Notes under the pieces: model-generated | Told to the model about the DNA's origin: nothing | The model's database searches: none | Seen by the model: only the letters and a program-made list of their open reading frames with translations | Position numbers and translations under genes: made by a program | Shown here: positions 26,478 through 33,457 of the stretch, piece by piece | How the letters are laid out: each line of letters starts with the position of its first letter | How positions within the stretch are numbered: position 1 is the stretch's first letter | Assembly: GCF_014647375.1 (NCBI RefSeq) | Contig: NZ_BMPB01000004.1 | Coordinates: 310,001 to 374,000 of the forward strand | Direction of reading: 5' to 3' | DNA from: Parabacteroides faecis | Lineage (GTDB): Bacteria; Bacteroidota; Bacteroidia; Bacteroidales; Tannerellaceae | DNA length: 64,000 bases

Positions 26478-26500
26478 GTTATATATAATATAATGTATAG

Positions 26501-26528
26501 AAAAAGGCTGTCTTCCGACAGCCTTTTT
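26501..26528. terminator. Bidirectional terminator
   Basis: AAAAAGGCTGTC and GACAGCCTTTTTT pair around TTCC. A and T runs flank both sides, so it can end the lipoprotein transcript and the opposing SpoIIE operon. Confidence 0.88.
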
Positions 26529-26533
26529 TGTTT

Positions 26534-27697
26534 TTATCCTTTGTAAGCGATCGATAGTAATGTTATATCATCCGATTGTACGGCATCTACGACAAAATCG
26601 CCAACTGTTTCAGTAATTTTATCTACTACCTCTTTCGGTTTCTTTCCTGCCAGTTCCCGGCAATTATCGAGTAACCGGCGTTCGCTGTATAGTTCGTGTT
26701 TCTTGTTCATCGCTTCCGTTACTCCGTCGGTGTAAAGGAACAGGTTATCGCCGGGAGCGAGTTTCAACTCTTTCTCGTGATAAGTGGTATCGCTCATGGC
26801 TCCCAGTATCATGTCATTGGTTGTCGGGACTTTTGAAACGGAACCATCCTTTTTCATCAGAATCGGTGGATTATGTCCGGCGTTGCAATAAGTAACGATG
26901 CCCGTTCGGATATTCAGAATACCGTAGAATACGGTGACGAACATGTCGTTCACACTTTCCTGGCAGAGAATACTATTGGAGCGTTGCATACACAAAGCAG
27001 CGGAGTTTTCGGTAAGTGCAATGGCACGTATCACCGTGCGGCTGATTGCCATAAAGATGGCAGCCGGTACCCCTTTGCCCGATACGTCGGCTATGACAAA
27101 TCCCAGCCGGTCTTCTCCGATACGGAAAAAATCATAGAAGTCGCCTCCCACATATTTAGCGGCACTCATGTAAGCATACAAGTCGAACGATTTCAAATCC
27201 GGGAACGGAGGAAACGTCTTCGGCAGGATCGTTTGTTGTATTTCCTGAGCCACATGCAGATCATTCTGAATGGATTCCAGTTGCGTATGTTCTTGCTGGG
27301 CCTGTTTAATAAAGGCGATCTGTTCGGCAGCCTTTTCGATGGTCCGTTCCAGATCTTCCAGGTTGATCGGCTTCGTTGTGAAGTCGAATGCTCCCTGGTT
27401 CATGGCGCTTCGGATATTTTCCATATCGCCGTAGGCCGATACCATAATACATTTGAGTGCCGGGTTGCGCATCTCGTTGATTTTGGTGAGCAAGGTCAGA
27501 CCGTCCATTTCAGGCATATTGATATCGCTCAGGATCACATCGAAGTCTGGTTTGGCAAGCAACATCTGGAGTGCTTCCAGTCCGTTGTGGGCAAATGAAA
27601 ATTCATATTCGCCTTTCTTTATCTTGCGACGAAAATATTGGGTTAACAATATTTCCAGGTCCAGTTCATCGTCTACACTTAATATTTTTATAGCCAT
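26534..27697 (-). CDS. Receiver-domain SpoIIE/PP2C serine phosphatase (RsbU-like)
   Basis: 387 residues. An N-terminal receiver domain (acid pocket D9-D10, phospho-acceptor D58 in DVILSDINMPEMDG, conserved T/S and K in MVSAYGD and FTTKPI) is joined by a coiled coil (AAEQIAFIKQAQQEHTQLESI) to a PP2C-type phosphatase (GGDFYDFF, IADVSGKGVPAAIFMAI, YCNAGHNPPI, LYTDGVTEAMN). Such proteins dephosphorylate a phospho-STAS anti-antagonist when the receiver is phosphorylated. Last gene of a five-gene operon that also encodes the STAS protein, its kinase and two histidine-kinase-like proteins, so input and substrate are encoded together. Confidence 0.93.
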   Translation of the reverse strand: MAIKILSVDDELDLEILLTQYFRRKIKKGEYEFSFAHNGLEALQMLLAKPDFDVILSDINMPEMDGLTLLTKINEMRNPALKCIMVSAYGDMENIRSAMNQGAFDFTTKPINLEDLERTIEKAAEQIAFIKQAQQEHTQLESIQNDLHVAQEIQQTILPKTFPPFPDLKSFDLYAYMSAAKYVGGDFYDFFRIGEDRLGFVIADVSGKGVPAAIFMAISRTVIRAIALTENSAALCMQRSNSILCQESVNDMFVTVFYGILNIRTGIVTYCNAGHNPPILMKKDGSVSKVPTTNDMILGAMSDTTYHEKELKLAPGDNLFLYTDGVTEAMNKKHELYSERRLLDNCRELAGKKPKEVVDKITETVGDFVVDAVQSDDITLLSIAYKG

Positions 27698-27716
27698 AGT
27701 AGCGTTGTTTCTGTAA

Positions 27717-28550
27717 TTATTGAATCGGAATGGTGATAGTAAAACGAGTAAACTCGTTGGGGTGGGATTCCAGTTCTATCGTTCCGTTATGTTTTTGTTC
27801 GATGATCGATTTAGTGATGGAGAGACCTAAGCCTGTCCCTTCTCCCAGCGGTTTGGTCGTGAAGAACGGGGTATAGAGTTTCTCTTTAACTTCGTCTGTG
27901 ATACCAGAACCGTTATCTTCGATCGTGAGGCGCACTTTATCACCGTCTTTCTTCAGGCTCACTTTTATGGTCGGTTTGTAAGGTGTTTCAGTCGCACCTT
28001 TCGACTTGTTGAATACAGCATAACACGCATTATTCATCAGATTGAGTACTGCGCGGCTGAAATCTTGCGGGATCACCTTGACCAATTGAAGCGTATCGTC
28101 GTATTCTTCTTCGATAGCAACGTTGAAGCTCTTATTGTTAGCCCGTACCGCATGGTAGGAAAGCCATACGTATTCTTTGGTCAGTTGACACAGATTGGTA
28201 GGAATATATTCATCGTCCTTTCCGCGTGAATAGAGCAGGATGCCCCGGATAACGCTGGATGCCCGGTTGCCGTTCTCTTCAATCTTGTTCATGTTACCTT
28301 TCAGATCCTCCATGATTTCCCGGAGTTCTTCGTCAGCATCTGCCGGCAGTTTGTCTTTCAGTTCGTCCAGTACTTCTTCCATATCCTGCAACAACTTGCA
28401 CGATAGTTTGCTGAAGTTGATCACAAAGTTGAGCGGGTTCTGTATCTCGTGTGCAATACCTGCGCTCAACAGTCCGAGTGAAGCCATCTTTTCCTGTTGA
28501 CTGACTTGTTTTTTCAGACGTTCAATTTCTTGTTTGCTGTTATCACTCAT
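27717..28550 (-). CDS. Soluble sensor histidine kinase
   Basis: 277 residues, no membrane helix and no sensor domain: a short coiled coil (SKQEIERLKKQVSQQEKMASL) leads into the H-box LLSAGIAHEIQNPLNFVINF with phospho-acceptor H34, and then a complete HATPase domain (N-box LNLMNNACYAVF, G1 IEDNGSGI, F-box FFTTKPLGEGTGLGLSI). It probably phosphorylates the receiver of the downstream SpoIIE protein. It starts eight bases inside the end of the upstream kinase-like gene, and the two may form a heterodimer. Confidence 0.9.
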   Translation of the reverse strand: MSDNSKQEIERLKKQVSQQEKMASLGLLSAGIAHEIQNPLNFVINFSKLSCKLLQDMEEVLDELKDKLPADADEELREIMEDLKGNMNKIEENGNRASSVIRGILLYSRGKDDEYIPTNLCQLTKEYVWLSYHAVRANNKSFNVAIEEEYDDTLQLVKVIPQDFSRAVLNLMNNACYAVFNKSKGATETPYKPTIKVSLKKDGDKVRLTIEDNGSGITDEVKEKLYTPFFTTKPLGEGTGLGLSITKSIIEQKHNGTIELESHPNEFTRFTITIPIQ

Positions 28551-29661
28551 TGTTGCTCTTTTGATAAATAGGAATAGAAATCATGAACTCAGTGAAGTTG
28601 TCCTTCTCACTCTTAACGATGATGGAACCATGATGGTTCAGGATAACTTCCCGGCAGAGGTACAAACCGACACCTGCCGCTTCGGCAGTAGGTTTAGTTG
28701 TAAAGAACGGTTCGAATATCTTATTCTTGATATTATCTTCGATACCGATACCGTTGTCACGGATGCTGATATAAATCGTTCCGTTCAGTCTCTTCTCCAC
28801 CTGGATCGTGATGACCGGGGAGAACTCTTCTTTCTGTAACTTTTTCAGCAATGCATAGATACTGTTTTTCAACAAGCTGAGCATTACTTTGTTCATTTGT
28901 TCGATATCTATCTCTGCCATGGCAGGTTCTGCCGGGCATAGGATATCGATCTGTATCTGTTTACTTTCGATCTCTTCTTTGAACGCTTTGCGGATCACGT
29001 CTACATTCACTTTACAGAGTTCGCAGATGTCGGTAGAAGTGGCATTGCCGTTCCTGTCTTTCAACAGTTCCTCCATCGCTTTTACGATCCGCACGGTGTT
29101 GCAGCCATGCTCATTGATTTTTTGCAGGTTGCTGTTGATCATATCGAGTATTTCGATGCTGTCGGCATAGTTCTCTTTCGACATGACCGCCTGTTCTTCC
29201 GTGATGTTAGCCTTCAGGTCTTTGATCAGGTTGGCGGAAAGTCCGGCAAAGTTATTGATGTAGTTGATCGGGTTCAGGATACGGTCGACCAGTCCTTGTG
29301 TCAATTGGCCGACGGTTGCCAGTTTTTCTTTGCGGACAAGTTCGTCCTGTGCTTTAGCCAGAGCATCCAGGGCATCAGAGAGTTTTTTGGACTCATTCAA
29401 TACTTGGTCACGTTGGATACGGAGTTCGATGGTCCGCTCTTCCACAATCTTTGCCAGGTATTCTTTTTGCTTCAATTGTTTGCGAAACCGTCCTTTAATG
29501 ATATAGAGGATGATAATTGTTACAATCGTGAGACCGGGAATCGTATCCCAGTCATAATAAAGACCGAGGATGACTACTATCCATCCCGCCAGTGTCGCTT
29601 TCTCAATGATCCGTAATTTCAGCTTGAGTGCGCTTATCTCTTTGATGTCGAAGTCTGCCAT
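28543..29661 (-). CDS. Membrane histidine kinase-like protein lacking the phospho-acceptor His
   Basis: 372 residues. Two short membrane helices at about 22-36 and 42-56, almost no periplasmic loop, a coiled coil at 60-115 and a DHp-like region GQLTQGLVDRILNPINYINNF. By alignment with the canonical A-H-E-I-x-N-P, the His position is D126 and the Glu position R127, so the H-box is degenerate. The ATP domain looks intact (LSLLKNSIYALL, IRDNGIGI, FFTTKPTAEAAGVGLYL). It may act as a pseudokinase or as the ATP-binding half of a heterodimer with the soluble kinase encoded next. Confidence 0.88.
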   Translation of the reverse strand: MADFDIKEISALKLKLRIIEKATLAGWIVVILGLYYDWDTIPGLTIVTIIILYIIKGRFRKQLKQKEYLAKIVEERTIELRIQRDQVLNESKKLSDALDALAKAQDELVRKEKLATVGQLTQGLVDRILNPINYINNFAGLSANLIKDLKANITEEQAVMSKENYADSIEILDMINSNLQKINEHGCNTVRIVKAMEELLKDRNGNATSTDICELCKVNVDVIRKAFKEEIESKQIQIDILCPAEPAMAEIDIEQMNKVMLSLLKNSIYALLKKLQKEEFSPVITIQVEKRLNGTIYISIRDNGIGIEDNIKNKIFEPFFTTKPTAEAAGVGLYLCREVILNHHGSIIVKSEKDNFTEFMISIPIYQKSNNE

Positions 29662-29662
29662 A

Positions 29663-30073
29663 TCAATGAATATCTTTTGTCATTGTGAGTATATTTTTTC
29701 CTGATGAACGGGAATAGGTGACTTCTGTCATCAGTTGTTTGACCAGATAGATCCCGAGACCTCCGATAGGCCGCTCTTCCGGTGGGAGGGTAATGTCGGG
29801 TTCTTTCATTTCCAGCGGATTAAAAGGCGTGCCTTTATCGGTGATGACGATCGCCAGCTGTTTGTTCCCATAGTTCATATCGATGCGTATATCCTGATCT
29901 TTTTTATTCGGGTAGGCATATAATATGACATTGGTCACCACCTCCTCGAGAGCCAGTTTGATTTGCATCGTCAACTGCTCTTCCAATCCGTAAGCGGAGG
30001 TGTGCAGGTCCAGAAACTCATACAAACGGGTGAGCTGCTCCAGTTCGTTCTTTATGTGTAACGTATTTATCAT
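29663..30073 (-). CDS. RsbW/SpoIIAB-like serine kinase (anti-sigma-type ATPase)
   Basis: 136 residues, the usual size of the family. GHKL fold with N-box KLALEEVVTNVILYAY, G1 VITDKGTPFNP and G2 GGLGIYLVKQLMTEV. Such kinases phosphorylate STAS partners on Ser and sequester a sigma factor or another target. It is 17 bases after the STAS gene and one base before the kinase-like gene. No sigma-B-type sigma factor is encoded nearby, so the output partner is unknown. Confidence 0.9.
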   Translation of the reverse strand: MINTLHIKNELEQLTRLYEFLDLHTSAYGLEEQLTMQIKLALEEVVTNVILYAYPNKKDQDIRIDMNYGNKQLAIVITDKGTPFNPLEMKEPDITLPPEERPIGGLGIYLVKQLMTEVTYSRSSGKNILTMTKDIH

Positions 30074-30090
30074 CTGCCGGTACGGGGCGC

Positions 30091-30393
30091 TTAGGATTCG
30101 ATGGTAAGGAAAGAAGAGAAACCGGTGATATTCAGAATATCTATGATGTCCTGTTGCAGGTTTCTCAGACGGAAAGTCCCGTTTTTTGCTTTCATACCTT
30201 TCTGCAGGGTCAACAGTAAACGAAGTCCGGCGCTACTGATATAAGTGAGCTCCGTTCCATCGAGTACTACAGTATGTACATCTTCTGCAAGTATTTTAGT
30301 GATCTCTTTTTCAAAATCAGCAGAAGTAAGCGTGTCTAACTGACCGGAAAGGTTGATGATTGTTTCGTTTCCGTTTTTTACTGTGATCTTCAT
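30091..30393 (-). CDS. STAS-domain anti-anti-sigma-type protein
   Basis: 100 residues, single STAS domain. The phosphorylatable Ser is at S53-S54 in LTYISSAGLRLLL, equivalent to the DSSG site of SpoIIAA. First gene of the partner-switching operon; promoter at 30424-30431. It would bind the RsbW-like kinase when unphosphorylated and be reset by the SpoIIE phosphatase. Confidence 0.93.
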   Translation of the reverse strand: MKITVKNGNETIINLSGQLDTLTSADFEKEITKILAEDVHTVVLDGTELTYISSAGLRLLLTLQKGMKAKNGTFRLRNLQQDIIDILNITGFSSFLTIES

Positions 30394-30423: not shown

Positions 30424-30431
30424 CAAAAGTA
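30424..30431 (-). promoter_or_regulatory. Promoter of the STAS/RsbW/kinase/SpoIIE operon
   Basis: CAAAAGTA on the plus strand reads TACTTTTG on the minus strand. A weak -33 (CAAG, 30452-30455) lies 20 bases upstream. The leader is about 26 bases. Confidence 0.55.
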
Positions 30432-30596
30432 TAGATAATCATTTAGTTGGACAAGTTATTTAGGGCTTTTGTACGGATCATAACGGAAATAGGCGGAAGG
30501 TATATAGGTTGGTCGTATCGGTATGCCGATATGTTTCGCTTTTCGTTGTGATAACAGTGTTTTGCCACGATGATGTCATAGCAGTGCCAATACTAT

Positions 30597-30716
30597 GGCA
30601 CAACACTGCCACAGTAATGGCAGAGTCTTGCCACAGCATTGGCAGAGTCTTGCCACAGCATTGGCAGAGTCTTGCCACAGCATTGGCAGAGTCTTGCCAC
30701 AGCATTGGCAGAGTCC
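30597..30716. repeat. 22-bp tandem repeat, four perfect copies plus partial copies
   Basis: Four identical 22-base units run from 30619 to 30706, with a partial fifth to about 30714 and degenerate units before (from about 30597). Each unit holds TGGCAGAGTCTTGCCA, a 5-bp inverted repeat, so every copy can form a small hairpin. It lies in the 379-base gap between the P-type ATPase 3' end and the STAS operon promoter; frames open through it are by-products of the 22-base periodicity. Confidence 0.92.
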
Positions 30717-30772: not shown

Positions 30773-33457
30773 CTATTTCCTGATCAACCGGCTGATACCT
30801 CTCGCTATCTCTCCGATCCAGAGAACCAGGGAGCTTAAACCGATAATGACACCCCAGTCTTTCAGGGATAAAGGCACTACGCTGAACATCTCTCCGCCGA
30901 ACGTAACGATCAGATACTGGCCGATGATGATCAACAGGGCGACGAACAGGAAGCTCTTGCTTTCTTTCAGGTTTGCAAAAGCGGAACGGCCTTCCATGAA
31001 TGCTTTCGCATTGAACATATTCCAGAACTGAAGCATCACGAAGAAACTGAAGAACCAGGATAAATCGTGCGGTGTTAATCCGGTCTGGGCATGGAAGTAA
31101 TACAATACGCCCATCAGGATCACAACAAAAGCGATACCTACTCCGAAGATGTTGTAAGCCATCGGGCGGGTAATGATAAAGTCGCCGTTTTTACCACTGC
31201 GGCGGGGTTTATCTTTCATTACCCGCTCGTTGGGAGGTAATGATGCCAATGCTCCGGCGGCAAATGTATCCATGATCAGGTTTACCCACAACATCTGTGT
31301 GATGGTAAGCGGCGATTCGGTTCCGAACAGGGAACCTAGTAATACGATCAGACAAGCGGCCACATTGATGGTAAGCTGGAATAAAAGGAACTTCTGTATG
31401 TTACGATATAAAGAGCGTCCCCACATGACTGCACGGGTAATGCTGCCGAATGAATTGTCCAGGATGGTAATGTCGCTGGCTTCTTTGGCTACAGAGGTCC
31501 CGTCACCCATAGACAAACCTACCTGGGCGGCTTTCAAAGCCGGGGCATCGTTTGTACCGTCGCCGGTTACGGCAACGACAGCACCTTTTTTCTGTAATAA
31601 TTGTACCAGGCGTTGTTTGTCGGTCGGACGGGCACGACACATGATCTTCAGGTCGAGCACACGGTCGAGTGCTTCTTCGTCCGTCAGTGCTTCGAATCCA
31701 GGGCCGGTAATAATATTGCGGTCGGTGTCTTCCGGTTTCCATGTACCGATCTGACGACCGATCTCACGGGCAGTACCCGGTGTATCGCCTGTGACGATCT
31801 TGACGTCGATACCGGCATTCAGACAGCTTTGTACGGCTGCCGGAACATCTGCACGGACAGGGTCGGAGATGGCTACGATACCTAGATAGGTCAGGTCGGT
31901 ACCATGCAAACGTCCGTTGACGAAATAAGCATCATCCTTCCCGTCTTCAATGATCTGGTAAGCAAAGCCTAATGTACGCATCGCCTGGTTCTGATAGTCC
32001 AGTAATTGTTTTTCGATGTCTGCCTTGCAGGCTTCAACCGTTTTGTAAGTACCGTCGGCTGCCACCCGCTGGCAGTTGGCTAGAACAATTTCGGGGGCAC
32101 CTTTCACATATAATACTTTTTTACCTGACAGAGGCGACTGTACCACTGTGGCCATATACTTCCGTTCGGTAGAAAACGTAAGCTGTGCTAAAACCGGGGC
32201 TTCTTCCCGTAATGTCAGATAGTTTTGATTCTGACTGTTCAGCCAAAGCAGTAAAGCAGCCTCGGTTGGATTACCTAGTGTTTTCACCTTATCTTCCGAG
32301 AAGTCGAGATAAGCGGTCGAGTTAACGGAAATGCCTTCTTTGATGAGGTTGCTCAACTCGTCATCTCCCAATTTCTGATCTTTGAGATTGTAGAAGTTCG
32401 TTTGGTAAACCTGCATCTGGTTTTGTGTCAACGTACCCGTTTTATCCGTACAGATCACCGTTGTCGCTCCCATGGTCTCACAGGCATGCATCTTGCGGAC
32501 CAGGTTGTTCGTCTTAAGCATGCGGTTCATGCTCAGGGCAAGACTCAGGGTTACACTCATCGGCAGACCTTCCGGAACGGATACAACGATCAGCGTTACT
32601 GCCACCATAAAGATGTTCAGAATATGCGAGATCAAGTCCATCACCGGCATACCGGAGGACGTCATCAATAATTTTGCGAGTAAGGCAATGAAGGTAAGTC
32701 CGGCAACCGTGTAGCCACCTTTGCTGATGACACCGGCAAGCCCTTTGAGCTGTATCTGTAGCGGTGTTTCCACGTCGCTTTCTATCTGCGAGCCTTCATA
32801 TACTTTTCCGTAGCCGGTGGCATCGCCTACCAGCTCGACTTTCATCACTCCATGTCCGTCGACAACCGTTGTGCCGCGCATCACCATATTGGATGGATAG
32901 GTCGCTTCGTGATCGAACTCGGCTTCGTTGGTGGTCTTGCTGATGATCGGTTCGCCTGTTAATGTCGATTCATTGATCTGCAGAGAGATAGCTTCCAACA
33001 GATGACCGTCGGCAGGAACTTCCTCTCCGGTTTCCAGTACGACGATGTCGCCGACAACGACTTCTTTTTTAGTTACCTGGCAAATATTCCCTTCACGGAT
33101 CACTTTGACGAACGTATCGTCGTTTACGGTATTCAATACATCGAACGCTTTGTTCGCTTTCATTTCGAAGAAGAACCCGACACACGATGCCAGCATGATA
33201 GCAAAGAAGATACCGATCGGTTCGAGGAAGGCTGTAAAACCTTTCGCTTCCGGTCCCCAGCAATGTACGCCGGCAATGATCATGGATAGCAGCCAGGCTA
33301 CCAGCAGGATCTTAATGATCGGGTCATTAAACTTTTCAAGGAACTGGCTCCAGAGAGAGGCTTTCTCCGGAGGTGTGAGGATATTTTCGCCGTGGAGGCG
33401 CCTGCTTTCTTCAACTTCTTGTTTGGTTAATCCCTGATACTGATGTTTTTTCTCCAT
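30773..33457 (-). CDS. Calcium-type P-type ATPase (PMCA/SERCA-like, P2)
   Basis: 894 residues. Cation pump of the inner membrane. Visible in order: cation ATPase N-terminal domain (YQGLTKQEVEESRRLHGENIL), actuator TLTGEPI, the PEGLP membrane motif, phosphorylation site ICTDKTGTLTQNQM, nucleotide-binding KGAPE, hinge TGDGTNDAPALKAA, and a C-terminal membrane block of about six helices (ACLIVLLGSLFG, WVNLIMDTFAAGALA). The NLIMDTFAALAL-type motif points to Ca2+; the ion is inferred. Single gene, downstream of the repeat region on the minus strand. Confidence 0.94.
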   Translation of the reverse strand: MEKKHQYQGLTKQEVEESRRLHGENILTPPEKASLWSQFLEKFNDPIIKILLVAWLLSMIIAGVHCWGPEAKGFTAFLEPIGIFFAIMLASCVGFFFEMKANKAFDVLNTVNDDTFVKVIREGNICQVTKKEVVVGDIVVLETGEEVPADGHLLEAISLQINESTLTGEPIISKTTNEAEFDHEATYPSNMVMRGTTVVDGHGVMKVELVGDATGYGKVYEGSQIESDVETPLQIQLKGLAGVISKGGYTVAGLTFIALLAKLLMTSSGMPVMDLISHILNIFMVAVTLIVVSVPEGLPMSVTLSLALSMNRMLKTNNLVRKMHACETMGATTVICTDKTGTLTQNQMQVYQTNFYNLKDQKLGDDELSNLIKEGISVNSTAYLDFSEDKVKTLGNPTEAALLLWLNSQNQNYLTLREEAPVLAQLTFSTERKYMATVVQSPLSGKKVLYVKGAPEIVLANCQRVAADGTYKTVEACKADIEKQLLDYQNQAMRTLGFAYQIIEDGKDDAYFVNGRLHGTDLTYLGIVAISDPVRADVPAAVQSCLNAGIDVKIVTGDTPGTAREIGRQIGTWKPEDTDRNIITGPGFEALTDEEALDRVLDLKIMCRARPTDKQRLVQLLQKKGAVVAVTGDGTNDAPALKAAQVGLSMGDGTSVAKEASDITILDNSFGSITRAVMWGRSLYRNIQKFLLFQLTINVAACLIVLLGSLFGTESPLTITQMLWVNLIMDTFAAGALASLPPNERVMKDKPRRSGKNGDFIITRPMAYNIFGVGIAFVVILMGVLYYFHAQTGLTPHDLSWFFSFFVMLQFWNMFNAKAFMEGRSAFANLKESKSFLFVALLIIIGQYLIVTFGGEMFSVVPLSLKDWGVIIGLSSLVLWIGEIARGISRLIRK

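Follow-up and report, generated by a model that had tools for sequence, protein, structure and literature searches.

A five-gene array of partner-switching and kinase-like proteins

We analysed a 64,000-nucleotide stretch of Parabacteroides faecis DNA (contig NZ_BMPB01000004.1, positions 310,001 to 374,000; hereafter the window), in which five minus-strand open reading frames at 26534–30393 encode, in this order, a STAS protein, an RsbW-like ATPase, two histidine-kinase-like proteins that we call HK1 and HK2, and a SpoIIE phosphatase fused to a receiver domain (receiver-SpoIIE). The window lies on contig C4 of the source genome (G000, 6.66 Mb); L and G numbers below denote fetched stretches and genomes, respectively. 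The genes and the residue pair on which our interpretation turns are as follows.

30091..30393, minus strand: STAS protein, 100 residues, RsbV/SpoIIAA-like (Pfam STAS 1.1e-18; TIGR00377 above cut-off)
29663..30073, minus strand: RsbW/SpoIIAB-like GHKL ATPase, 136 residues (Pfam HATPase_c_2 3.1e-28)
28543..29661, minus strand: HK1, kinase-like sensor, 372 residues, with dimerization and histidine phosphotransfer (DHp) and ATPase domains (HATPase_c 1.4e-17)
29281..29286, minus strand: codons of HK1 Asp126-Arg127, at the His-Glu position
27717..28550, minus strand: HK2, histidine kinase, 277 residues (HisKA 2.4e-07, HATPase_c 3e-24), His34-Glu35 intact
26534..27697, minus strand: receiver-SpoIIE phosphatase, 387 residues (Pfam Response_reg 4.1e-23, SpoIIE 2e-53), receiver D58

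The intergenic gaps are 17, 1, −8 and 19 bases. These gaps, the coordinates and the residues D58 and S53/S54 agree with the initial annotation of the window, and the Pfam domains and spacing bear out its description of partner-switching genes arrayed like an operon. The two serines of the STAS protein, S53 and S54, lie within the motif YISSAGL and are candidate phosphorylation sites; its solved relatives include PDB 6m36_B and 1th8_B (RsbV and SpoIIAA). The RsbW-like protein retains the N and G boxes, has RsbW (6m36_A) and SpoIIAB (1th8_A) among its solved relatives and scores below the NCBIfam RsbW/SpoIIAB cut-offs; by analogy it is probably a serine kinase. Residues D58, D186, D204, D376 and D377 of receiver-SpoIIE are invariant in our alignment A1, and we take the conserved phosphatase aspartates to have a metal-site role. 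With Response_reg and SpoIIE in one protein and D58 present, the phosphatase could be controlled by a histidine kinase, as had been suggested.

HK1 lacks the phosphoacceptor histidine

The two kinase-like proteins had been treated as equivalent, and in this respect the initial annotation needs revision. The H box of HK2 reads AHEIQNP and includes His34, whereas that of HK1 reads VDRILNP, with Asp126-Arg127 where His-Glu is expected (aligned to the HE of PDB 3a0r), so that a normal phosphoacceptor is found only in HK2. HK2 combines its His-Glu with HATPase_c, and neither a sensor domain nor a hydrophobic segment was detected in it by domain matching and hydropathy. In HK1, Pfam did not detect HisKA at E ≤ 0.01, and hydropathy shows the protein to be moderately hydrophobic in two segments, one near residue 16 and one near residue 41. 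Asp-Arg is invariant in alignments A2 and A4 and occurs in 20 of the 21 rows of the first HK1 group, the exception (L033_3031) being a distant kinase with His-Glu. When 89 kinase rows from 60 stretches were chosen blind to the motif, the H-box column held Asp in 22, each followed by Arg, and His in 55, with 12 distant rows unreadable; no replacement other than Asp-Arg was seen at the His-Glu position in the 77 readable rows.

Of its ATPase boxes HK1 keeps N and G1 (DNGxG); the G2 box has Ala in place of its first Gly in the Parabacteroides rows and retains this Gly in L050, L110 and L121. The AlphaFold model of HK1 (mean predicted local distance difference test score 77.8, predicted template modelling score 0.50) has a long helix bearing Asp126, a second helix and then the ATPase domain, and is weak at about 101–130, Asp126 included, and at 321–331. 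A Foldseek search with this model matched HK853 and ZraS, with DivL (4q20) at rank 33; DivL presumably carries a Tyr at the His position.

A normal histidine kinase function for HK1 was ruled out, the phosphoacceptor His being missing. We also considered a His of the second DHp helix (H185, invariant in A4) as a substitute acceptor and set it aside: HK2 relatives also have a His at this place in their A3 consensus, and the residue looks structural.

Prevotellaceae and a second lineage of Parabacteroides have a long HK1, of about 800–1000 residues in most cases. Domain scans of two such proteins, from the Parabacteroides stretches L046 and L037, showed Reg_prop and Y_Y_Y sensor domains in both, and the sensor is therefore carried by the His-less subunit. 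Both genes adjoin those of a WD40-repeat protein and a TonB receptor.

The Asp-Arg kinases form one clade

A DNA pattern for [VI]DR..NP.NY, which is blind to HK2 and detects Asp-Arg only, was scanned over a collection of genome contigs and matched at least 118 stretches. With the H-box columns left out, a 271-row tree gathers all 128 rows with Asp-Arg (D-type) into one clade with support 93. Twelve first-set rows (six short, six with neither motif, all distant kinases) and six short second-set rows had been dropped, and 11 exact duplicates removed from the remaining 282. A smaller IQ-TREE analysis likewise placed 36 of 36 D-type rows in one clade (Shimodaira–Hasegawa-like approximate likelihood ratio test, 99). 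In the same analysis a branch with support 89 sets all 72 D-type and HK2 rows, plus one extra row (L122), apart from the rest, and D-type and HK2 kinases therefore look like products of one duplication.

The clade is mostly Bacteroidales and Cytophagales. By label, 105 of its rows are Bacteroidota, one is Pseudomonadota (L196, a metagenome-assembled genome) and 22 lack a taxon label; a stretch titled Chlorobiota (L209) also encodes a D-type kinase, which is not a separate row of the tree. Prevotella, Parabacteroides, Phocaeicola, Dyadobacter, Spirosoma, Larkinella, Hymenobacter and Runella are among the genera named. Judged from their sequences, the His-less sensor kinases are an old family, chiefly of Bacteroidota, that is associated with a His-bearing partner and with SpoIIE switches.

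The single clade of 128 rows rules out a sequencing slip or local decay as the source of the His loss. A broader version of the decay idea would make HK1 a remnant that contributes nothing, with HK2 alone serving receiver-SpoIIE. The phosphoacceptor has indeed gone, as has the first G2 Gly in Parabacteroides, but there is a single change of His to Asp, Asp-Arg is kept across 128 rows and three named orders, the open frames run to more than 1200 residues, and in some lineages HK1 has gained copies while HK2 has not. We regard decay as very improbable.

HK1 is linked to a His-bearing partner

The motif scan yielded at least 119 D-type kinases, of which 105 had at least 700 bases downstream and could be evaluated. 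A second kinase lies within 400 bases downstream of 90 of these 105, among the matches listed: 82 were recognized by strict motif and seven more by an HE found on reading the sequence, while in the remaining case (L126) the first gene to follow encodes another D-type kinase. The HK2 open frames in 102 pairs span 213–336 codons, some being cut by stretch ends.

The 15 unpaired D-type kinases, again among the matches listed, comprise 12 from Prevotellaceae, two from Cytophagales and one unplaced, and ten of them fall in one 13-row subclade with support 100. Whole-genome searches found an HK2-like gene (274–376 residues) elsewhere in 12 of the 15 genomes concerned, with E ≤ 1.6e-120 in ten Prevotellaceae, 2.0e-92 in G456 and 1.9e-84 in G460. 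Most of the Prevotellaceae genomes are metagenome assemblies, from which genes may be missing. Where the HK2 locus was read, in nine Prevotellaceae genomes, HK2 has HE and its upstream neighbour Asp-Arg in all nine. Further kinases without an adjoining HK2 have Asp-Arg in all 11 that were fetched from seven of these genomes, and also in L177 and L219 from the other two. There is thus one histidine donor with two or three His-less sensors in these genomes. Full-length receiver-SpoIIE proteins number one to three per genome in the nine, a count that does not always match that of the sensors. As a tentative generalization, for which we would give somewhat less than an even chance, these proteins would be an old Bacteroidota class of His-less sensors that are unable to signal by themselves and borrow their phosphoacceptor from a dedicated soluble HK2, and in some Prevotellaceae a single HK2 would be the hub shared by two or three different sensors, of which most have a receiver-SpoIIE to themselves.

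The same material bears on another role for HK1, that of a separate homodimer acting as a phosphatase or decoy for receiver-SpoIIE in opposition to HK2 rather than as its partner subunit. In favour of this role, HK1 has lost His and the adjoining Glu and keeps the N and G1 boxes and the Asn at +4, the latter being, we assume, the phosphatase residue of HisKA proteins. Yet Asn-Pro at +4/+5 is also present in HK2 and may be structural, and the unpaired HK1 of Prevotellaceae that have their own receiver-SpoIIE would leave these receivers with an opposing enzyme and no adjoining kinase. We judge a homodimeric HK1 unlikely.

Conservation of the module in relatives

The initial annotation had proposed profiling the five-gene order across Bacteroidota. 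The order recurs in five of 20 stretches of a first set (L034, L035, L036, L038, L039) and in one of 20 of a second (L106); HK1 and HK2 overlap by 8 or 4 bases in all six and the other gaps are similar. It is also found in metagenome-assembled genomes of Tannerellaceae (L142) and Dysgonomonadaceae (L223), while L146 and L204 are repeats of L106 and L039. This recurrence means that the order is more than chance. In P. distasonis-like genomes, a label that depends on our taking G016 to be P. distasonis ATCC 8503, HK1 (sometimes in two copies), HK2 and SpoIIE lie together, and the RsbW–STAS pair is elsewhere, near genes that by eye resemble recO and gyrB.

Within the genus, SpoIIE was found in 23 of 28 genomes searched. 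Of these 23, 22 (all but G017) have both a STAS-only gene and a stand-alone RsbW-like protein matched at 60 bits or more; neither was found at that level in four SpoIIE-negative genomes (G002, G006, G011, G021). The remaining genome, G004, has the RsbW-like and STAS-only genes and no SpoIIE; a contig end falls inside its operon, and it was set aside. In other families (L107–L109, L111–L120, L122–L125) receiver-SpoIIE accompanies His-bearing kinases, single or in tandem.

Several variant loci were seen. L118 and L111 have four His-bearing kinases in tandem (up to 2341 residues) with a lone receiver and a receiver-SpoIIE. L046 and L095 have a STAS gene, one for an alpha-amylase/isoamylase-like enzyme, a second STAS gene, an RsbW-like gene, a large HK1 and HK2, an arrangement that may point to some connection with sugar storage. 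At L037:13342–17112 a one-module non-ribosomal peptide synthetase (condensation, AMP-binding, carrier) follows the receiver-SpoIIE, WD40, HK1, HK2 and TonB-receptor genes, and L044 and L046 have long genes at the same place. At L049:13757–15714 a GPP34 (Golgi phosphoprotein 3-like) gene and a near-identical neighbour adjoin the STAS genes of a receiver-SpoIIE locus, and in L110 a gene of similar appearance by eye follows STAS. The source genome has a second partner-switch set (L033:9285–13346, on G000:C6), with an RsbW-like protein, a 649-residue SpoIIE protein, an NMT1/THI5-like binding protein and a 244-residue protein with RsbW-like and STAS parts. In G458, SpoIIE and RsbW-like matches share one long open frame on contigs C249, C107 and C16 (755, 664 and 789 residues), so that this genome has several apparent phosphatase–kinase fusions.

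A probable transcription unit and flanking sequences

Two further features flank the operon.

30424..30455, minus strand: possible Bacteroidales-type promoter directly upstream of STAS (TAnnTTTG box at 30424–30431, TTG box near 30452)
26500..26529, no strand assigned: stem-loop with T runs, a 13-pair stem between the operon end and a convergent lipoprotein-like gene

The promoter-like sequence, AATAACTTG...TACTTTTG, is common to the window, L034 and L106, three related sequences, and is absent from a fourth relative, L035. The box consensus is, we assume, that of Bacteroidales promoters. A scan of the window for TTTG-N18-26-TAnnTTTG gave four matches, none of them at the operon, against a chance mean of 2.97. 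The stem-loop was reported by the scan on the plus strand and reads as symmetric enough to serve both strands. Taken together, the stem-loop past the operon end and the promoter-like sequence fit a single transcription unit that would run from STAS on.

Upstream of the operon and on the same strand lies a P-type cation ATPase gene (30773–33457), and in the gap between this Ca-ATPase gene and STAS a 22-base repeat (TGCCACAGCATTGGCAGAGTCT, 30607–30715) occurs five times in near-perfect form. In L036 and L038 a relative of the ATPase gene lies 30 bases before STAS, and the two may be co-transcribed there.

The output of the switch

One protein matching sigma region 3 (PF04539) was found in G000, on a contig other than that of the window, and likewise one in each of seven other Parabacteroides genomes searched. 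Because there is a single region-3 sigma factor per genome, a SigB/SigF/FliA-type target is absent from G000 and from these relatives by the region-3 profile, extracytoplasmic function (ECF) sigma factors and sigma-54 not having been searched. The initial annotation had noted that no SigB/SigF-type factor lies nearby, a remark that now extends, for region-3 sigma factors, to the whole genome. Its companion statement, that none is generally known in Bacteroidetes, was too broad: two or three region-3 sigma factors occur in ten of 12 Prevotellaceae genomes, two in G326 and three in G051. The phylum-wide statement therefore fails, and a sigma target is possible in those genomes. RsbW-like matches are present in all 12 Prevotellaceae.

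The RsbW-like protein might accordingly act on a sigma factor after all, binding the primary sigma or an ECF sigma. Its PDB relatives are RsbW and SpoIIAB structures, G000 has one region-3 sigma factor, most of the Prevotellaceae searched have more than one, and Chlamydia offers a precedent in a proposal that concerns sigma66 and takes the primary sigma factor or another target as the partner-switch output (PMC8256260). Set against this, no sigma gene was recognized beside the module in the layouts read, by eye and with partial Pfam scans only; the single region-3 gene lies on another contig or hundreds of kilobases away in G000, G013 and G016; and the RsbW-like protein, as noted, falls short of the NCBIfam anti-sigma cut-offs. 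We consider a sigma output a substantial possibility, if on balance a doubtful one. For a non-sigma output, which the initial annotation had put forward as a possibility, there is a precedent in SiaABCD of P. aeruginosa (PMC9239204).

Neighbouring genes name no target. Those beside the unlinked RsbW–STAS pairs (L083–L086, L088, L092, L093) vary by group when inspected by eye, and the Ca-ATPase, which adjoins STAS at several loci, was not adopted as an output since it is not adjacent at the P. distasonis-like ones.

A proposed split sensor driving a partner switch

We propose that a split two-component sensor drives the partner-switching module encoded by the operon. In this scheme HK1 would be a membrane sensor with a DHp/ATPase core that, lacking its own phosphoacceptor, pairs with soluble HK2, which would supply the usable histidine. 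The HK1–HK2 complex would set the phosphorylation of D58 in receiver-SpoIIE and thereby control the phosphatase, which would strip phosphate from Ser53/54 of the STAS protein; the STAS protein would then bind the RsbW-like kinase, which would otherwise phosphorylate it and hold a target encoded elsewhere. A signal would thus pass from HK1 to His34 of HK2, to D58 of receiver-SpoIIE, to Ser53/54 of STAS, to the RsbW-like kinase and to the target. We give this proposal, taken whole, an even chance.

Several observations count against it. HK1 keeps ATP-box residues and the Asn at the fourth position after Asp126, and could have a lone phosphatase role. The HK2 rows are not one clade, 13 of 36 lying outside the main HK2 clade in IQ-TREE, and the idea of a single HK2 clade was dropped, although these genes may still have had a common origin. 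Evolutionary distances of HK1 and HK2 correlate strongly (r 0.94 over 60 of the 102 pairs), a figure that is confounded by shared ancestry. Whole-genome searches found no HK2-like gene of under 400 residues in two Prevotellaceae genomes with an unpaired D-type kinase (G464, G465) or in Larkinella rosea (G467), and in G467 no receiver-SpoIIE match was found either. The association of the RsbW-like/STAS pair with SpoIIE in the genus (Fisher p 2.8e-4, G004 left out) uses a 60-bit threshold chosen after the matches had been viewed and is uncorrected for relatedness. Some receiver-SpoIIE genes have a tandem of His-bearing kinases next to them, and a tandem alone is no proof of a special pair. Finally, no conserved neighbour points to the output.

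Relation to known systems

The module resembles the Rsb and SpoIIA systems (RsbV–RsbW–RsbU/P, SpoIIAA–SpoIIAB–SpoIIE) in bringing together a STAS protein, an RsbW-like ATPase and a SpoIIE-type phosphatase, and differs from them in that no SigB/SigF-type sigma factor is present by the region-3 profile and that the phosphatase comes with a receiver and two kinase-like genes. A receiver fused to a SpoIIE phosphatase is also a feature of the Pseudomonas proteins behind the RssB model NF045505, the best NCBIfam match of receiver-SpoIIE, which covers residues 3–381 of 387 at 116.9 bits against a cut-off of 700. PA3346 and HsbR belong to this comparison. PA3346 is described as having kinase activity as well (PMC8256260), whereas no kinase part was seen in receiver-SpoIIE, and a kinase pair is encoded within the operon.

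Among tested precedents for kinases that split their work, FasBC of group A Streptococcus comes closest: two kinase-like proteins for which two-hybrid assays gave evidence of heterodimers and none of homodimers, and which have divided roles towards one response regulator (PMC12675982). The assignment of parts differs: FasC, the proposed sensor and proposed pseudokinase, has the key His, whereas here the sensor HK1 is without it and HK2 has it, and FasA, the output there, is a DNA-binding protein. Caulobacter DivL, one of the Foldseek matches of HK1, has a kinase fold, is named a pseudokinase and acts on a partner kinase (PMC4211667); it serves the cell cycle, whereas HK1 has Asp-Arg and is encoded beside its partner and a SpoIIE switch. 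ChrS is a further pseudokinase case (PMC9491836). SiaABCD shares partner switching, with a cyclic di-GMP enzyme as its identified, non-sigma output, and no kinase pair is described there in the available part of the account (PMC9239204).

A kinase pairing of the FasBC or DivL type, for which linkage, phylogeny and co-occurrence were examined, may operate here, and in our best reading the module would be such a pairing newly combined with partner switching. No description of an HK1/HK2 kinase pair in Bacteroidota was found in the titles and abstract openings searched, most subscription papers being outside reach.

These findings point to an old, widespread and testable arrangement in which sensor and phosphoacceptor divide the work, in a phylum that is prominent in the gut and rumen. 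If HK2 is indeed a hub in Prevotellaceae, several partner switches of these bacteria run through one histidine, and one HK2 with many sensors would be an unusual two-component wiring. Parabacteroides genomes that have one region-3 sigma factor offer a clean system for identifying the target of an RsbW-like protein in the absence of SigB or SigF.

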